The notes beneath the pieces are model-generated. The model searched no databases. It was not told the origin of the DNA and was given only the letters and a program-made list of their open reading frames with translations. This document shows positions 3,704 to 26,365 of a DNA stretch of 31,451 nt, piece by piece. Location of the stretch: positions 1-31,451 of the IMG/VR virus record IMGVR_UViG_3300035698_003362; one strand, 5' to 3'. Each line of letters opens with the position of its first letter. Positions within the stretch are counted from its first letter, which is position 1. The position numbers and the translations under genes were made by a program. The DNA is from a virus.

Positions 3704-5881
3704 TTATATCAGTATGTAACTGATTATGAATCGAACAGATGTAGCCGTATCGGCATCGCCACCAGTTTTACTGACGCTAAGGTCAACACCAGCCGTTTGT
3801 GCAGCGAATGACGCACCATCGGCAATAACCGTTACACCAGCCGTATCCAACTGATTTACAACAGATTGTGCAAGTGTCGCAGCGGTTGTACTTGTCAGAT
3901 CAGTTGCACCACAACCAACTTCTACAGAAGTCGTAGTTCCAACTGTCCCGCCAATGGCGATTTGTTTCAAATCAACCAACTGGAATTGTCTATTAGCCGG
4001 AACCGTAACAAGTACATGTCCTGCGTTAATTTCAGCAACAGAAGCATCCACGACCAACGTATGAGTCATGTAGCCTTCAGCTTCGCCTTTAACTGCGCCA
4101 TTCAAAGTAATTACAGTTGCAGCAGTCGCAGCTTTACCAACAGCTACGGTAGTGGCATTTGTAGAACCAATAGTGATTCCGGCGGCAGTACCACCGTTGA
4201 CAGCACCAGTATCAATAGTTACCGCACCAGCAGCACCATCACCATCAGACGATGCACCACCAGTTATTGTTACAGCTCCACCCTGGGAAGACCCAGATGT
4301 TGAAATACCACCAGCAATAGTAACTGTACCGCCATCGCCAGTCGTTGTTCCACCGGCTCCACCAGTGACATTCAAAGCACCACCATATCCAGTAGTAGTT
4401 CCACCAAGACCTGCGGTTAAGTTAAGAATCGCACCTGCGGATGTTCCAGCACCAGCTTTGGCAGCAATGTCGGTTGACGTTGCATTTGAACCCACGATTG
4501 CAGCGGCAGCCGAAAGTGTCACAGTCCCAGAGGCAGCGATTGTAGTAACGCCAGAAAGCGCACCGCCCATAGCAAGAGTTGTAATCCCGGTCCATGCACC
4601 AGAAGTAAGTGTTGCTGTTCCATCAGTAATTGAATCGCCTGTTACAGCACCATCGGAAGTAAATGCTCCATTGGCTTGAATAACGCCAGCAGTTGAAATG
4701 GTAACACCTGTTGCTCCGTATCCACCGCCGAAAGTTGCACCAGCAGTACATGATATATCTGCAAGGGTAGATGTTCCAGTAACTTCAAGCGTAGTATCAC
4801 AAGTAACTGCTCCAGCAATTTCTACAACACCAGCAGTAGAGATTGAAACACCAGTAGAAGCATAGCCTCCTCCAAATGTAGCACCAGCGGTACACACAAG
4901 ACTTGCTAGCGTCGCAGCACCAGAAGTAGAAGCGGTTGTAAACGCACCAGCAGCAGGAGTGGCTCCACCAATAGCGGCTGCGTCAATCGTTCCACCATTG
5001 ATATCAACAGTTGTTACAGTTCCAAGGTCAGTCCAAGTACCTGTTACAGATGGAGTTGTTATCGCAACTGCGCCGGTAATAGTACATGCGTTAATAGTCG
5101 GGTCTGTAAGCGTTGCAGTAGTCAGTGTTTTGCCAGCAACCGTCTGTGCAAGGGCGAGATAAACAAGACTATCATCTCCACCGGGGTCTGGAGCAGAAAG
5201 TGTACTTGATTGACCAACAGAATCTGGTTTAAGAGTAAGATTAAATCCACTTCCACCAGTTGCAGCACCAGAAAGGATTAACTGGCTGTTCGATGAATCA
5301 GAATCAACTGTAAAGGTTGTGTTCGTTGTACCAGTTGAATCGGATACAGCCGAAAGTGCACCACCAGTTGTTGCACCAGCATGAGTATGATTAGCATTCG
5401 CCCAACCTGTAGCTGCAATCGTCGGAGTTGTCAGTGTCTTGTTCGTCAGCGTTTGTGTCGCTGATAAACTGACAAGCGTATCAGCCACAACGTCAGGAAG
5501 CGTCAGCGTAACGGCCTGGGTTGTTATAGGAGCTTTAAGCGTAACAGCGTGATCTGTTCCTGTAGTATTTACAGAAAGAACAAATGTTCCGTCGCTTTCG
5601 CCATTTGCAAGCGTGAAGGTATCGCTTGTTGTTACTGATTCTGTACCACTGGCGACACCAGAGGCAGAAAGGGCATCAAAATTTGCAGAAGCAAAAGTCC
5701 CAACATTAACGTAATAAATTGCCGTAACATCTACACTGTCGGTTTTTAAGAACTTACACCCCTTTGCATAGCCTGACGTTCCGTTTACTGGAACGGTCGT
5801 TCCTTCCGCATAAATTAGCCCACCATCCGGGTCCATAGCCCGTTTCTTATCACTTAACCATCTGTGTACACTTGAAGACAT
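3704..5881 (-). CDS. Tail fibre-like repetitive protein
   Basis: 725 residues, ATG 5881 preceded by AGGAGA. Residues 1-75 form an N-terminal domain with GYAKGC and YYVNVGT motifs often seen in environmental phage fibre proteins. Residues 125-160 and 240-265 carry TLTNKTLTTPTI-type repeats typical of fibre shafts. Residues 330-352 and 378-400 are near-identical copies of a CTAGATFGGGY module. Residues 490-575 are Gly/Thr-rich triplet-like repeats. About 110 residues at the C-terminus are non-repetitive and look like a terminal head domain. This is the usual architecture of a trimeric fibre that contacts the host surface. Function is assigned from composition and position, not from a recognised named family. 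Confidence 0.8.
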   Translation of the reverse strand: MSSSVHRWLSDKKRAMDPDGGLIYAEGTTVPVNGTSGYAKGCKFLKTDSVDVTAIYYVNVGTFASANFDALSASGVASGTESVTTSDTFTLANGESDGTFVLSVNTTGTDHAVTLKAPITTQAVTLTLPDVVADTLVSLSATQTLTNKTLTTPTIAATGWANANHTHAGATTGGALSAVSDSTGTTNTTFTVDSDSSNSQLILSGAATGGSGFNLTLKPDSVGQSSTLSAPDPGGDDSLVYLALAQTVAGKTLTTATLTDPTINACTITGAVAITTPSVTGTWTDLGTVTTVDINGGTIDAAAIGGATPAAGAFTTASTSGAATLASLVCTAGATFGGGYASTGVSISTAGVVEIAGAVTCDTTLEVTGTSTLADISCTAGATFGGGYGATGVTISTAGVIQANGAFTSDGAVTGDSITDGTATLTSGAWTGITTLAMGGALSGVTTIAASGTVTLSAAAAIVGSNATSTDIAAKAGAGTSAGAILNLTAGLGGTTTGYGGALNVTGGAGGTTTGDGGTVTIAGGISTSGSSQGGAVTITGGASSDGDGAAGAVTIDTGAVNGGTAAGITIGSTNATTVAVGKAATAATVITLNGAVKGEAEGYMTHTLVVDASVAEINAGHVLVTVPANRQFQLVDLKQIAIGGTVGTTTSVEVGCGATDLTSTTAATLAQSVVNQLDTAGVTVIADGASFAAQTAGVDLSVSKTGGDADTATSVRFIISYILI
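4682..4750 (-). repeat. Fibre shaft repeat, copy 2
   Basis: Encodes residues 378-400 of the tail fibre-like protein, a second copy of the 23-residue CTAGATFGGGY...ISTAGV module, 48 residues after the first. The copies differ at three residues (AS to GA, and S to T). At DNA level they differ mainly at third positions, so this is an old protein-level duplication, not a recent DNA duplication. Confidence 0.7.
4826..4894 (-). repeat. Fibre shaft repeat, copy 1
   Basis: Encodes residues 330-352 of the tail fibre-like protein, the first copy of the CTAGATFGGGY...ISTAGV module. Each copy starts with a cysteine, which is unusual in a fibre shaft and could allow regularly spaced disulfide or metal contacts between chains. 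Confidence 0.7.
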
Positions 5882-6203: not shown

Positions 6204-6362
6204 TTATTTAACTGTAGAATCCTTCGCGGCGATACCAATGAGCAGCACTCCACCAGCGGAAAGGATTCCACCAGCAAATTTCGCGTAGATATTATCCAGG
6301 AGAATTAACGCTGCTCCTATAGTCGCTAAGATTCCACCAATAGTCGTTTTCCAATTTTTCAT
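6204..6362 (-). CDS. Two-span membrane protein, holin-like candidate
   Basis: 52 residues from ATG 6362; a longer upstream start lacks support. Two hydrophobic segments lie at about residues 8-21 and 28-44, separated by a short DNIYAKFAG turn, with a charged tail at the end. Size and topology fit small class II holins, though many phage membrane proteins look alike. The ATG lies one base after the TAA of the transmembrane reading frame at 6364-6558, which argues that both are translated in sequence. No endolysin lies next to it. Confidence 0.6.
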   Translation of the reverse strand: MKNWKTTIGGILATIGAALILLDNIYAKFAGGILSAGGVLLIGIAAKDSTVK

Positions 6363-6363
6363 G

Positions 6364-6558
6364 TTACTTTTTTCTTTTCTTAATAAACGCACCAACCACA
6401 AGGGTTGTTACGATTCCTATGGGCCATGCTATCCACCACGGGAACCCCGCAGCAGTAGCGATTGTCTTTGCTACGTTTCCGGCGTTTCTGGCTGTGTCGT
6501 CTCCGGTTCCGTCGCCGTCTGCGGAACCTCCACCGAAGGGCTTTCCAGTGTCCCACCG
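6364..6558 (-). CDS. Start-less transmembrane reading frame (possible -1 frameshift product)
   Basis: An open frame of 64 codons in the -1 frame relative to the lipoprotein-like gene at 6471-6761. It has no in-frame ATG, and no GTG or TTG before the membrane segment. It encodes a Gly/Asp-rich linker, then GFPWWIAWPIGIVTTLVVGA, a convincing membrane helix, then IKKRKK and TAA. The next gene starts one base after this TAA, as expected for a translated frame. A possible slip site is the proline codon CCT at 6539-6537, which can re-pair as CCC. The alternatives are a sequencing indel or a decayed gene. The joined product would be an N-terminal lipoprotein with a C-terminal membrane helix, the layout of a unimolecular spanin. 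Confidence 0.45.
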   Translation of the reverse strand, partial: RWDTGKPFGGGSADGDGTGDDTARNAGNVAKTIATAAGFPWWIAWPIGIVTTLVVGAFIKKRKK

Positions 6559-6761
6559 TCATCAATGGTAGTAGTGATCGTGGATGTGTTCGATCCCGAT
6601 CCGGGTATGCTAGCATCAGGGGTTGCGTTCTGGTAAACGTTAATCACTAAACCCTGACCACCCATACCGCCACTACCATCACATCCTTGCGAACATACCA
6701 TTCCGCACATTAGTACGAAGCACGCCGCAGCCATCGAAATGTAAAACAGTATCTTTTTCAT
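6471..6761 (-). CDS. Lipoprotein-like secreted protein
   Basis: 96 residues. ATG 6761 is preceded by GGAG at good spacing. The N-terminus has a KK charge pair, a hydrophobic stretch (ISMAAACFVLMCGMV) and several cysteines (positions 15, 19, 23 and 27), resembling a lipoprotein signal peptide, although no cysteine has a perfect lipobox. The remainder is a Gly/Ser/Thr-rich, then Pro/Glu/Thr-rich linker expected to be extracytoplasmic. The gene overlaps the transmembrane frame at 6364-6558. It could be an outer-membrane spanin subunit, or the first part of a frameshifted single-gene spanin. Confidence 0.65.
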   Translation of the reverse strand: MKKILFYISMAAACFVLMCGMVCSQGCDGSGGMGGQGLVINVYQNATPDASIPGSGSNTSTITTTIDDGGTLESPSVEVPQTATEPETTQPETPET

Positions 6762-6902: not shown

Positions 6903-7121
6903 CTATCCTGTAAAAAGTTTCGCTATTGTAAACCCAATGCCACCGCCACCAGCAAACATCACGCCAGACCCAAACCATATGAGTTTATTAAATCGCTTAC
7001 CATGACCACATCCTTCTTGGTGTTGAGTGAACATTTCAGGAAGACCATTTTCAAGAAAGCCGTCAAAGTATTGTCTTATCCTTAATTCAACTCTATCCAT
7101 GTCTTGTTCTGTTAATGACAT
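6903..7121 (-). CDS. Single-span membrane protein, holin-like candidate
   Basis: 72 residues, ATG 7121 preceded by AAGGGAA. A charged cytoplasmic-type N-terminus (about 45 residues, with a CGHGKRFNK segment) is followed by one hydrophobic segment at residues 47-69 (LIWFGSGVMFAGGGGIGFTIAKLF). This layout, an amphipathic head and one C-terminal span, is shared by small phage membrane proteins of the haemolysin XhlA or holin type. It stands between the tail spike and the lipoprotein-like cluster. Confidence 0.6.
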   Translation of the reverse strand: MSLTEQDMDRVELRIRQYFDGFLENGLPEMFTQHQEGCGHGKRFNKLIWFGSGVMFAGGGGIGFTIAKLFTG

Positions 7122-12801: not shown

Positions 12802-13104
12802 TTATAAATACTTTGCTAAAATGTCTTCGAGCAAACAAATAACACGATGTTCGTTGTTGTCTGGTATGTCATCCAAAAACGCGTCAGCAAACACGATGTG
12901 CAACAACTCGTGGATAATTGCAGATCGCTGCTTATCACCAACTGGCGACCAAATGATACAAGTTCGTCTGAAAGCATCAAAATTAACCTGTGCAGAAGCA
13001 TCAAGTCCAACCCAAATAGGCCTCTCTTTGCACTCAGACAGCTTTATATTCCATGCGTCCAGCTTAAACAGCTTGATAAGTTTTTGGAATTCCCTGCTTT
13101 TCAT
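12802..13104 (-). CDS. Small HExxH zinc metallopeptidase-like protein
   Basis: 100 residues, ATG 13104 with AAGGAA upstream. Residues 65-69 are HELLH, the zinc-binding and catalytic motif of many metallopeptidases, in the context SAIIHELLHIVF, preceded by a strand and followed by DNNEHRVICLLEDIL, which can supply a third ligand. The whole protein is close to a minimal SprT/M78-like domain. Neighbouring genes are the scaffold and two small unknown proteins. It might process a head protein or an early host factor; the substrate is unknown. Confidence 0.65.
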   Translation of the reverse strand: MKSREFQKLIKLFKLDAWNIKLSECKERPIWVGLDASAQVNFDAFRRTCIIWSPVGDKQRSAIIHELLHIVFADAFLDDIPDNNEHRVICLLEDILAKYL

Positions 13105-22151: not shown

Positions 22152-22775
<624 letters not shown>

Positions 22776-24560: not shown

Positions 24561-25531
24561 GCGTAGAATGGATAGAAGGTTTCGGTAATCTTGCCAACAC
24601 CCATTTCGTTTACAACAGCCTCAATAATCCCAAATCCGGTATGGGCTTGTATTTTCTTGCCGCGCATCCACTTGCTTTGTTTCTCGATACACCCAGCCCC
24701 AATACAGTGTACGTTTCTGATAAAGAACTTCCCGTACTTATGTACATGACCGGCAATTAAAATGTTTGGCTTTTCACCACCAGATAAACTTTCAATTAGC
24801 TTCTGAAGCCTATATGATATCGCATACGACGAACCATCTTCTCCGTGCCATAGTTTAATGGTGGCATTTTCGCCAAGCTCAATATCTCCCTCGTCGTGCC
24901 CTAAGAACTTGGCGCACGGAAGGTCTTTGCAAATATCCTTAACTATCCGTGCGCCGTTGCTCTTCAAAAACCATCGGTCATGATTGCCGTCAATCATATA
25001 CAGCGGGCAGAAGTCAAATGGTTCAAACAAATCAATAGCTTTTTCTTTTTGTGCATCAAACCCAAGCTCTGAACATTCGTAAATATGTCCAGCCCTATTA
25101 CTAAGCCCTTCGGTAACATCACCAGCGTGAACAACCATATCTACGCCTTCTTTGGCGAACTCTTCGCGGGCATCAGATATATAACTGGTATCAAGATATA
25201 TAGAGCCAATGTGTGTGTCAGACATATATCCTATCTTGACCGTCTTTCCGGTAAAATCGTGGACTGGAGTGTGCTTATACCCCATATCAAGATTGCCTTC
25301 GGCTAAGAGGCGGAGTTCTTTGCCGGTATATCTCTCGGCTATCTTTGCAAGTGTTGGGCTTTGTGATGCCACATCTTTGTTGCATGCCCTTGCATCAATA
25401 CCATTAGACTTGCGCATGTATCGCCTGATGGTTTCTCGGGTAACACCAAATTTTTTAGCAGCAACATCAACACTGGTTTTAGCTACATAATCACGAACTT
25501 CAGTCTTTCGTTCTATTGATGTATTACTCAT
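24557..25531 (-). CDS. Calcineurin-like metallophosphoesterase with N-terminal HTH
   Basis: 324 residues. The N-terminal 45 residues contain a helix-turn-helix (VDVAAKKFGVTRETIRRYMR, residues 21-40) of resolvase/transposase type. Residues 100-270 hold all calcineurin-like motifs: SDTHIG (D105, H107), GDVTEG (D138), GNHDR (N183, H184), WHG (H229) and GHVHKYG (H262, H264), which bind two metal ions for phosphoester hydrolysis. Similar phage proteins are annotated as phosphoesterases or DNA-repair exonuclease-like enzymes, substrate unknown. It is coupled to the DUF1937 gene by ATGA. The HTH may direct it to particular DNA sites. Confidence 0.88.
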   Translation of the reverse strand: MSNTSIERKTEVRDYVAKTSVDVAAKKFGVTRETIRRYMRKSNGIDARACNKDVASQSPTLAKIAERYTGKELRLLAEGNLDMGYKHTPVHDFTGKTVKIGYMSDTHIGSIYLDTSYISDAREEFAKEGVDMVVHAGDVTEGLSNRAGHIYECSELGFDAQKEKAIDLFEPFDFCPLYMIDGNHDRWFLKSNGARIVKDICKDLPCAKFLGHDEGDIELGENATIKLWHGEDGSSYAISYRLQKLIESLSGGEKPNILIAGHVHKYGKFFIRNVHCIGAGCIEKQSKWMRGKKIQAHTGFGIIEAVVNEMGVGKITETFYPFYA

Positions 25532-25890
25532 ATTACAGTTCCTTCATGGGTTAATTCAAGTGTTTCAGGGTCAAGGTATCCAACAGGAATATTGTGTTGC
25601 CTGGCGAATTCTGTCTCCCACCCAACGCCGTAAGATCCTTCCCAGCCGTCGAGCATTAGTATCCACATCACATCGCTGCGTATAATAAACTCTTTGTCGA
25701 AGTTCAGCCAGAAGTCAGCATCCATTCCGTCAAGATTACCAAACTCTGCAATTGGGTGAGTATGAGCAATGGGTGAAAACACTACAATGTTCTCGGCCAT
25801 GAGTTCACCAGCTACGGCACACACCGCTTCAAATCGTTCTTCTCTCACTTCAGGGTCTTCGTGGCTATACGGACTTGCTAGATATATCAT
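25528..25890 (-). CDS. DUF1937 protein (nucleoside deoxyribosyltransferase-like)
   Basis: 120 residues, ATG 25890 with AGGAGA inside the end of the upstream gene (26-base overlap). The sequence shows the DUF1937 signature: MIYLASPYSHEDPEVREERF (residues 1-20), FSPIAHTHPIA (38-48), and MLDGWEGSYGVGWETEFA (near residues 79-96). Fold comparison links DUF1937 to nucleoside 2-deoxyribosyltransferases, which act on nucleotide bases, although activity of DUF1937 itself is not established. Neighbours are a nucleotide diphosphohydrolase-like gene and a phosphoesterase, consistent with nucleotide metabolism. Confidence 0.82.
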   Translation of the reverse strand: MIYLASPYSHEDPEVREERFEAVCAVAGELMAENIVVFSPIAHTHPIAEFGNLDGMDADFWLNFDKEFIIRSDVMWILMLDGWEGSYGVGWETEFARQHNIPVGYLDPETLELTHEGTVI

Positions 25891-26365
25891 TTGTTTCTCC
25901 TAACTTAGAGTAAATTGGCATGTCGTTTAATTCGGGTTTGTTTTCTATGTAGTGAATTATGAACATAAGGTTGCAAGACATTGCAGCACCATTATCTTCC
26001 TCGGCCTCGCCACAGCTTTCATTTTTCATATGCCTGCCTTCACTATCAAAACATCTAGCAACAGACATTCCAGCAGCCCAATTATACGGGGCATATTTCT
26101 CAGCACCCTTTTCCAGCCATCCGCACAACCTCCCGTAGCCACCTTGAGCTTCTATCATTACAAAAAAAGCGTCTTTTAAGTGTTGAACATTGCCGTCAAT
26201 GAGGAATTTTTTAATATCTGTGCCAGCTTGAGCGTAATTAGTCTCCTCTAGTATAGAATCCCACCACCACGGCGCCATCCAGTGCATCTTCGGCTTCCCA
26301 TCTGCCGCATCACGCACCGCACCTGTTTCAAACTCCTGTCGCTTACCCGAATCTTGCATATCCAT
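25865..26365 (-). CDS. dATP/dGTP diphosphohydrolase-like protein (DUF5664-type)
   Basis: 166 residues from ATG 26365; ATG 26359 is an alternative. Residues 13-30 include the ETGAVRDAADGKPKMHW segment that opens this phage family. A central helical region has KGAEKYAPYNWAAGM (about residues 86-100), CFDSEGRHMKNES, and EEDNGAAMSCNLMFIIHYIE, the metal-ligand-like D/E pattern of the MazG-like fold. Family members are annotated as dATP/dGTP pyrophosphohydrolases; in some phages related enzymes shape the nucleotide pool for modified-base genomes. No base-synthesis gene is seen here, so that link is only a possibility. Confidence 0.72.
   Translation of the reverse strand: MDMQDSGKRQEFETGAVRDAADGKPKMHWMAPWWWDSILEETNYAQAGTDIKKFLIDGNVQHLKDAFFVMIEAQGGYGRLCGWLEKGAEKYAPYNWAAGMSVARCFDSEGRHMKNESCGEAEEDNGAAMSCNLMFIIHYIENKPELNDMPIYSKLGETNDISSKSV

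Follow-up and report, generated by a model that had tools for sequence, protein, structure and literature searches.

Organization of the locus

The analyzed window is the whole of IMG/VR record IMGVR_UViG_3300035698_003362 (31,451 bases), which belongs to a very divergent tailed phage. On its minus strand, positions 6471 to 6761 hold a 96-aa open reading frame, hereafter frame A, that runs from an ATG at 6761 to a TAG ending at 6471 and is preceded by an AGGAG sequence 8 nt 5' of the start codon. The product of frame A begins with MKK and carries a signal-like hydrophobic stretch (residues 4-23), with cysteines at positions 14, 19, 23 and 27, i.e., in or just past this stretch. It continues with a Gly/Ser/Thr linker, and its final ~25 codons, rich in Pro/Glu/Thr, overlap a second open frame. 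This second frame (frame B; 6364 to 6558, minus strand) lies at -1 relative to frame A and encodes 64 residues up to a TAA at 6366-6364, comprising a Gly/Asp linker, the membrane helix AAGFPWWIAWPIGIVTTLVVGAF with WW at its start, and a KKRKK end. No ATG, GTG or TTG is found ahead of the helix in frame B, the first of these codons being a GTG within the helix; translation of frame B from a start of its own was therefore rejected. A GGAGG sequence within 6533-6528 was likewise considered as a ribosome site for frame B, and has no frame B start codon at the proper spacing. The ATG of the next gene, at 6362, is one base past the frame B stop. The first-pass annotation had described the two frames correctly, including their coordinates, their -1 relation, the start-less character of frame B and its stop abutting the next ATG.

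Coding signal in the two frames

Coding potential was expressed as log-odds per codon under a codon model for which 28 other genes of the window served as training set. Where only frame A is open, it scored 0.22 per codon versus -0.4 for the other frames. In the overlap, frame B reached 0.39 per codon versus 0.06 for frame A, and in the part covered by frame B alone it scored 0.10 versus -0.10 and -0.57 in the other frames. According to codon likelihood, a path switching from frame A to frame B gained 14.3 nats, compared with 5.7 nats for frame A followed by non-coding sequence. The likeliest switch point lies at 6548 to 6554 (minus strand), on a flat optimum within which positions 6557 to 6518 differ by about 3 nats at most.

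When the principal coding stretches of the window were searched for frame-switch paths, this switch was placed at 6552. Compared with the list of open reading frames, the other switches that persisted at high cost all coincided with boundaries between genes, the second gene having a start codon of its own. The passage from frame A to frame B was the sole start-less frame switch detected in the coding sequence of the window. Besides, among 200,000 random sequences matched in dinucleotide composition, none combined a helix as hydrophobic as that of frame B with a K/R end. Because both frames carry a coding signal, the switch between them is the only start-less one, and the helix with its basic tail is not a product of chance, frames A and B very probably belong to one gene.

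Neighbourhood and search for relatives

The gene that follows (6204 to 6362, minus strand) encodes a small, holin-like membrane protein of 52 aa belonging to the NWKTTIGG family. Its relatives adjoin a lysozyme gene in one genome (L002) and a muramidase-type gene in another (L006), these names being read from sequence and not from a family search. On the upstream side, the neighbour within the presumed lysis region is a 72-aa protein with a C-terminal membrane helix (6903 to 7121, minus strand). No endolysin was recognised among the window proteins scanned; the window may be a fragment. Elsewhere, a 100-aa protein with an HELLH motif, possibly a small zinc metallopeptidase, is encoded among the structural genes (12802-13104, minus strand), and a 207-aa open reading frame (22152-22775, plus strand) contains a long Ala/Tyr/Asp low-complexity tract, with an overlapping frame that is almost pure Leu/Met. 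Matches to DUF1937 (25528-25890, minus strand; E 6.4e-15) and dGTP_diPhyd_N (25865-26365, minus strand; E 2.1e-10) likely mark a nucleotide-metabolism pair.

The divergence of this phage is illustrated by its terminase, for which solely distant matches (21-32% identity) were retrieved from IMG/VR, GTDB genomes, a phage collection and two bacterial phyla. Nothing close was found either for frames A and B, for the 52-aa gene downstream or for the capsid in these same sources, and 688 bacterial genomes likewise gave no close relative. None of the viral, phage or bacterial genome searches yielded a close relative in which the frame is intact. Apart from weak, non-informative matches, frame A, frame B and the joined chain had no counterpart in Pfam, PHROGs and phage records, and the joined chain resembled no known spanin family in these three sources.

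By its terminase, the nearest phage (TerL 32%) is L007/L023, record IMGVR_UViG_3300033148_005591. It encodes in one frame a 194-aa lipoprotein that has an LLGC lipobox and, at its C-terminus, a helix followed by a GRRKDK tail (L023:4417-5001, minus strand), located downstream of the structural genes, on the same strand and after a small helix-bearing gene. No sequence similarity to the joined chain is detectable and the two proteins cannot be aligned; the same holds for the upstream neighbours. Since the sequences are not alignable, the L023 protein is regarded as an analogous layout, not as a homolog. Its periplasmic part also contains a near-identical internal duplication (LSPGEKVTRPQLQAEA...; within 4417-5001, minus strand). 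Together, the codon signal, the neighbourhood and the single-frame layout in this distant relative support the initial claim that the two frames form one gene with the layout of a unimolecular spanin.

Origin of the frame split

The two frames are out of register by one step, as would result from a single-base indel, whether introduced by error during assembly or truly present in the phage as a mutation. Such an indel would be the simplest cause of the split and is more likely than programmed slippage. The first-pass annotation had kept this possibility, a plain spanin gene interrupted by an indel, as an alternative to the slippage that it favoured. The order of the two is now reversed, although the coding sequence of the window shows no sign of a further indel, for which reason an assembly error exactly at this place is unlikely a priori.

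Under programmed -1 frameshifting, most ribosomes would make the 96-aa product and a minority the joined chain, perhaps by slipping at a C_CC.T tetramer (6537 to 6540, minus strand) upstream of a hairpin. This is unlikely, and the signals examined do not support it. The overlap contains no slippery heptamer of the X_XXY_YYZ type, and the tetramer, the one Z_ZZ.N motif that frame A has within the overlap, is a weak candidate slip site. Indeed, C_CC.U is among the six Z_ZZ.N tetramers that are active in E. coli with the help of a stimulator, but it is barely shifty without one; with the IS3 pseudoknot, the six tetramers span 0.26 to 5.6%, C_CC.U standing well below A_AA.G (PMC4066793). The slip from CCT to CCC at 6539-6537, as proposed at first reading, therefore falls in a real motif class, but by our estimate a stretch of 29 codons contains on average about 0.7 copies of the six active tetramers, and one would occur by chance about half the time. 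Moreover, the best switch point by codon likelihood is slightly upstream of this tetramer.

A possible stimulator begins 8 nt after the tetramer, in the form of a perfect 7-bp hairpin (GGTTCCG/CGGAACC; 6505 to 6528, minus strand; -10.6 kcal/mol). This finding and the lack of any other indel in the coding sequence of the window speak for slippage. However, the hairpin is ordinary for its GC content, its stability being matched by 6-8% of 30-nt windows at the same GC, and the whole 121-nt region folds no better than its shuffles (z 0.15). At 6654-6648 (minus strand), frame A also contains the canonical slippery heptamer G_GGT_TTA, probably by chance; it was rejected as a slip site because the -1 frame there stops within a few codons and cannot reach frame B.

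If slippage yielded two products, the tail of frame A could be under selection as the end of the shorter one. This was evaluated by permutation of the codons of frame B and by synonymous resampling. Permuted codons left an equally long open frame A in 17% of cases and an equal PET content in 16-20%. Synonymous resampling lowered the score of frame A (p 0.004), whereas permutation of codon order had no such effect, and the former result was consequently read as reflecting local GC content. The tail of frame A is as the codon content of frame B predicts, with no sign of selection beyond it. With no heptamer in the overlap and no selection on this tail, there is no requirement for programmed slippage, and no precedent for a spanin made by frameshifting was found in the openly licensed literature searched.

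A proposed spanin-like membrane protein

Read as a single chain, positions 6761 to 6364 would encode about 132 residues with an N-terminal signal, a linker, a C-terminal helix and KKRKK, the helix being coding but in the -1 frame relative to the signal. The locus would then correspond to a single membrane gene, with a unimolecular-spanin layout, in the lysis region of a divergent tailed phage. In the proposed mechanism, the N-terminal signal would target the membrane and be followed by some 80 residues of flexible periplasmic linker, while the C-terminal helix would span the inner membrane and leave the KKRKK end in the cytoplasm. The joined protein would in this way tether both host membranes and disrupt the outer one at lysis. 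We give about an even chance to the view that this is one spanin-like lysis-region gene whose frames were most likely separated by an indel, of either technical or real origin.

The N-terminus is the delicate point of this interpretation. It had been called lipoprotein-like, and it is indeed hydrophobic and signal-like, but no cysteine of frame A conforms to the consensus lipobox [LVI][ASTVI][GAS]C, with SQGC (C27) and AAAC (C14) both missing it. By position, the best candidate is SQGC at residue 27, which is off-consensus and has an Asp at +2. As judged from these residues, the identity of frame A as a lipoprotein is weak. Deviant spanin lipoboxes such as AWAC exist, so that an off-consensus lipobox is not fatal to the spanin interpretation. 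In E. coli, Asp at +2 retains lipoproteins in the inner membrane; the Asp following C27 would have this effect under the E. coli rule, which is not universal and may not hold in the host of this phage. No cysteine occurs after C27 in either part, leaving the periplasmic portion free of cysteines if C27 is the lipidated one.

These features could also describe an inner-membrane protein that has two helices joined by a loop in the periplasm, acting as a holin-region accessory and not as a spanin. The N-terminal 19 residues could form an uncleaved helix, the consensus lipobox is absent, and C27, the only cysteine past the hydrophobic stretch with an acceptable -1 residue, carries the Asp associated with retention in E. 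coli. This interpretation nevertheless appears improbable, given that the Cys- and Gly-rich stretch past the helix resembles a lipoprotein start, that a relaxed search of the window gave no better sense-strand lipoprotein candidate, and that the +2 rule may not apply in this host. Most improbable is that frame A alone makes the product, as a small, Pro-rich lipoprotein with an o-spanin-like or other function, and that frame B is an unused remnant: the 96-aa frame is intact with a good ribosome site and o-spanins are short and Pro-rich (PMC6139136), but a remnant would soon lose a coding signal as strong as that of frame B (0.39-0.49 per codon), no i-spanin partner adjoins, and the lipobox is off-consensus.

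Significance and comparison with known systems

The spanin-like gene split by an indel thus remains our preferred interpretation, and the present evidence adds a very divergent spanin-like candidate. It also emphasizes that such split genes would escape an annotation made one reading frame at a time. A spanin made solely through -1 slippage from the lipoprotein-like frame, with a fixed minority of bridging protein over a short form devoid of the bridge, is quite unlikely. If it were true, the product ratio would set the dose of outer-membrane disruption, or its timing. Were slippage real, this would be the first spanin known to us in which a translational ratio sets the membrane bridge.

Compared with -1 frameshift genes relying on Z_ZZ.N tetramers, of the IS3-family type (PMC4066793), the locus shares an open -1 frame across the tetramer and a downstream hairpin, but differs from them by a C_CC.U far weaker than A_AA.G and by the lack of a demonstrated pseudoknot or conserved signal. 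The L023 lipoprotein is similar in layout and in its comparable place downstream of structural genes; it differs in being encoded in one frame, in its consensus-like LLGC and in its charged, repeated periplasmic part. Unimolecular spanins, of the phage T1 gp11 type, comprise 58 members in 13 families (PMC6139136). Unlike these, the present candidate is distributed over two frames, has an off-consensus lipobox with Asp at +2, and matches no phage record or PHROGs family in sequence. If read as a joined chain, it shares with them an N-terminal export signal, a C-terminal helix with a basic end, a presumed lysis-type neighbourhood and a chain devoid of cysteine past C27.
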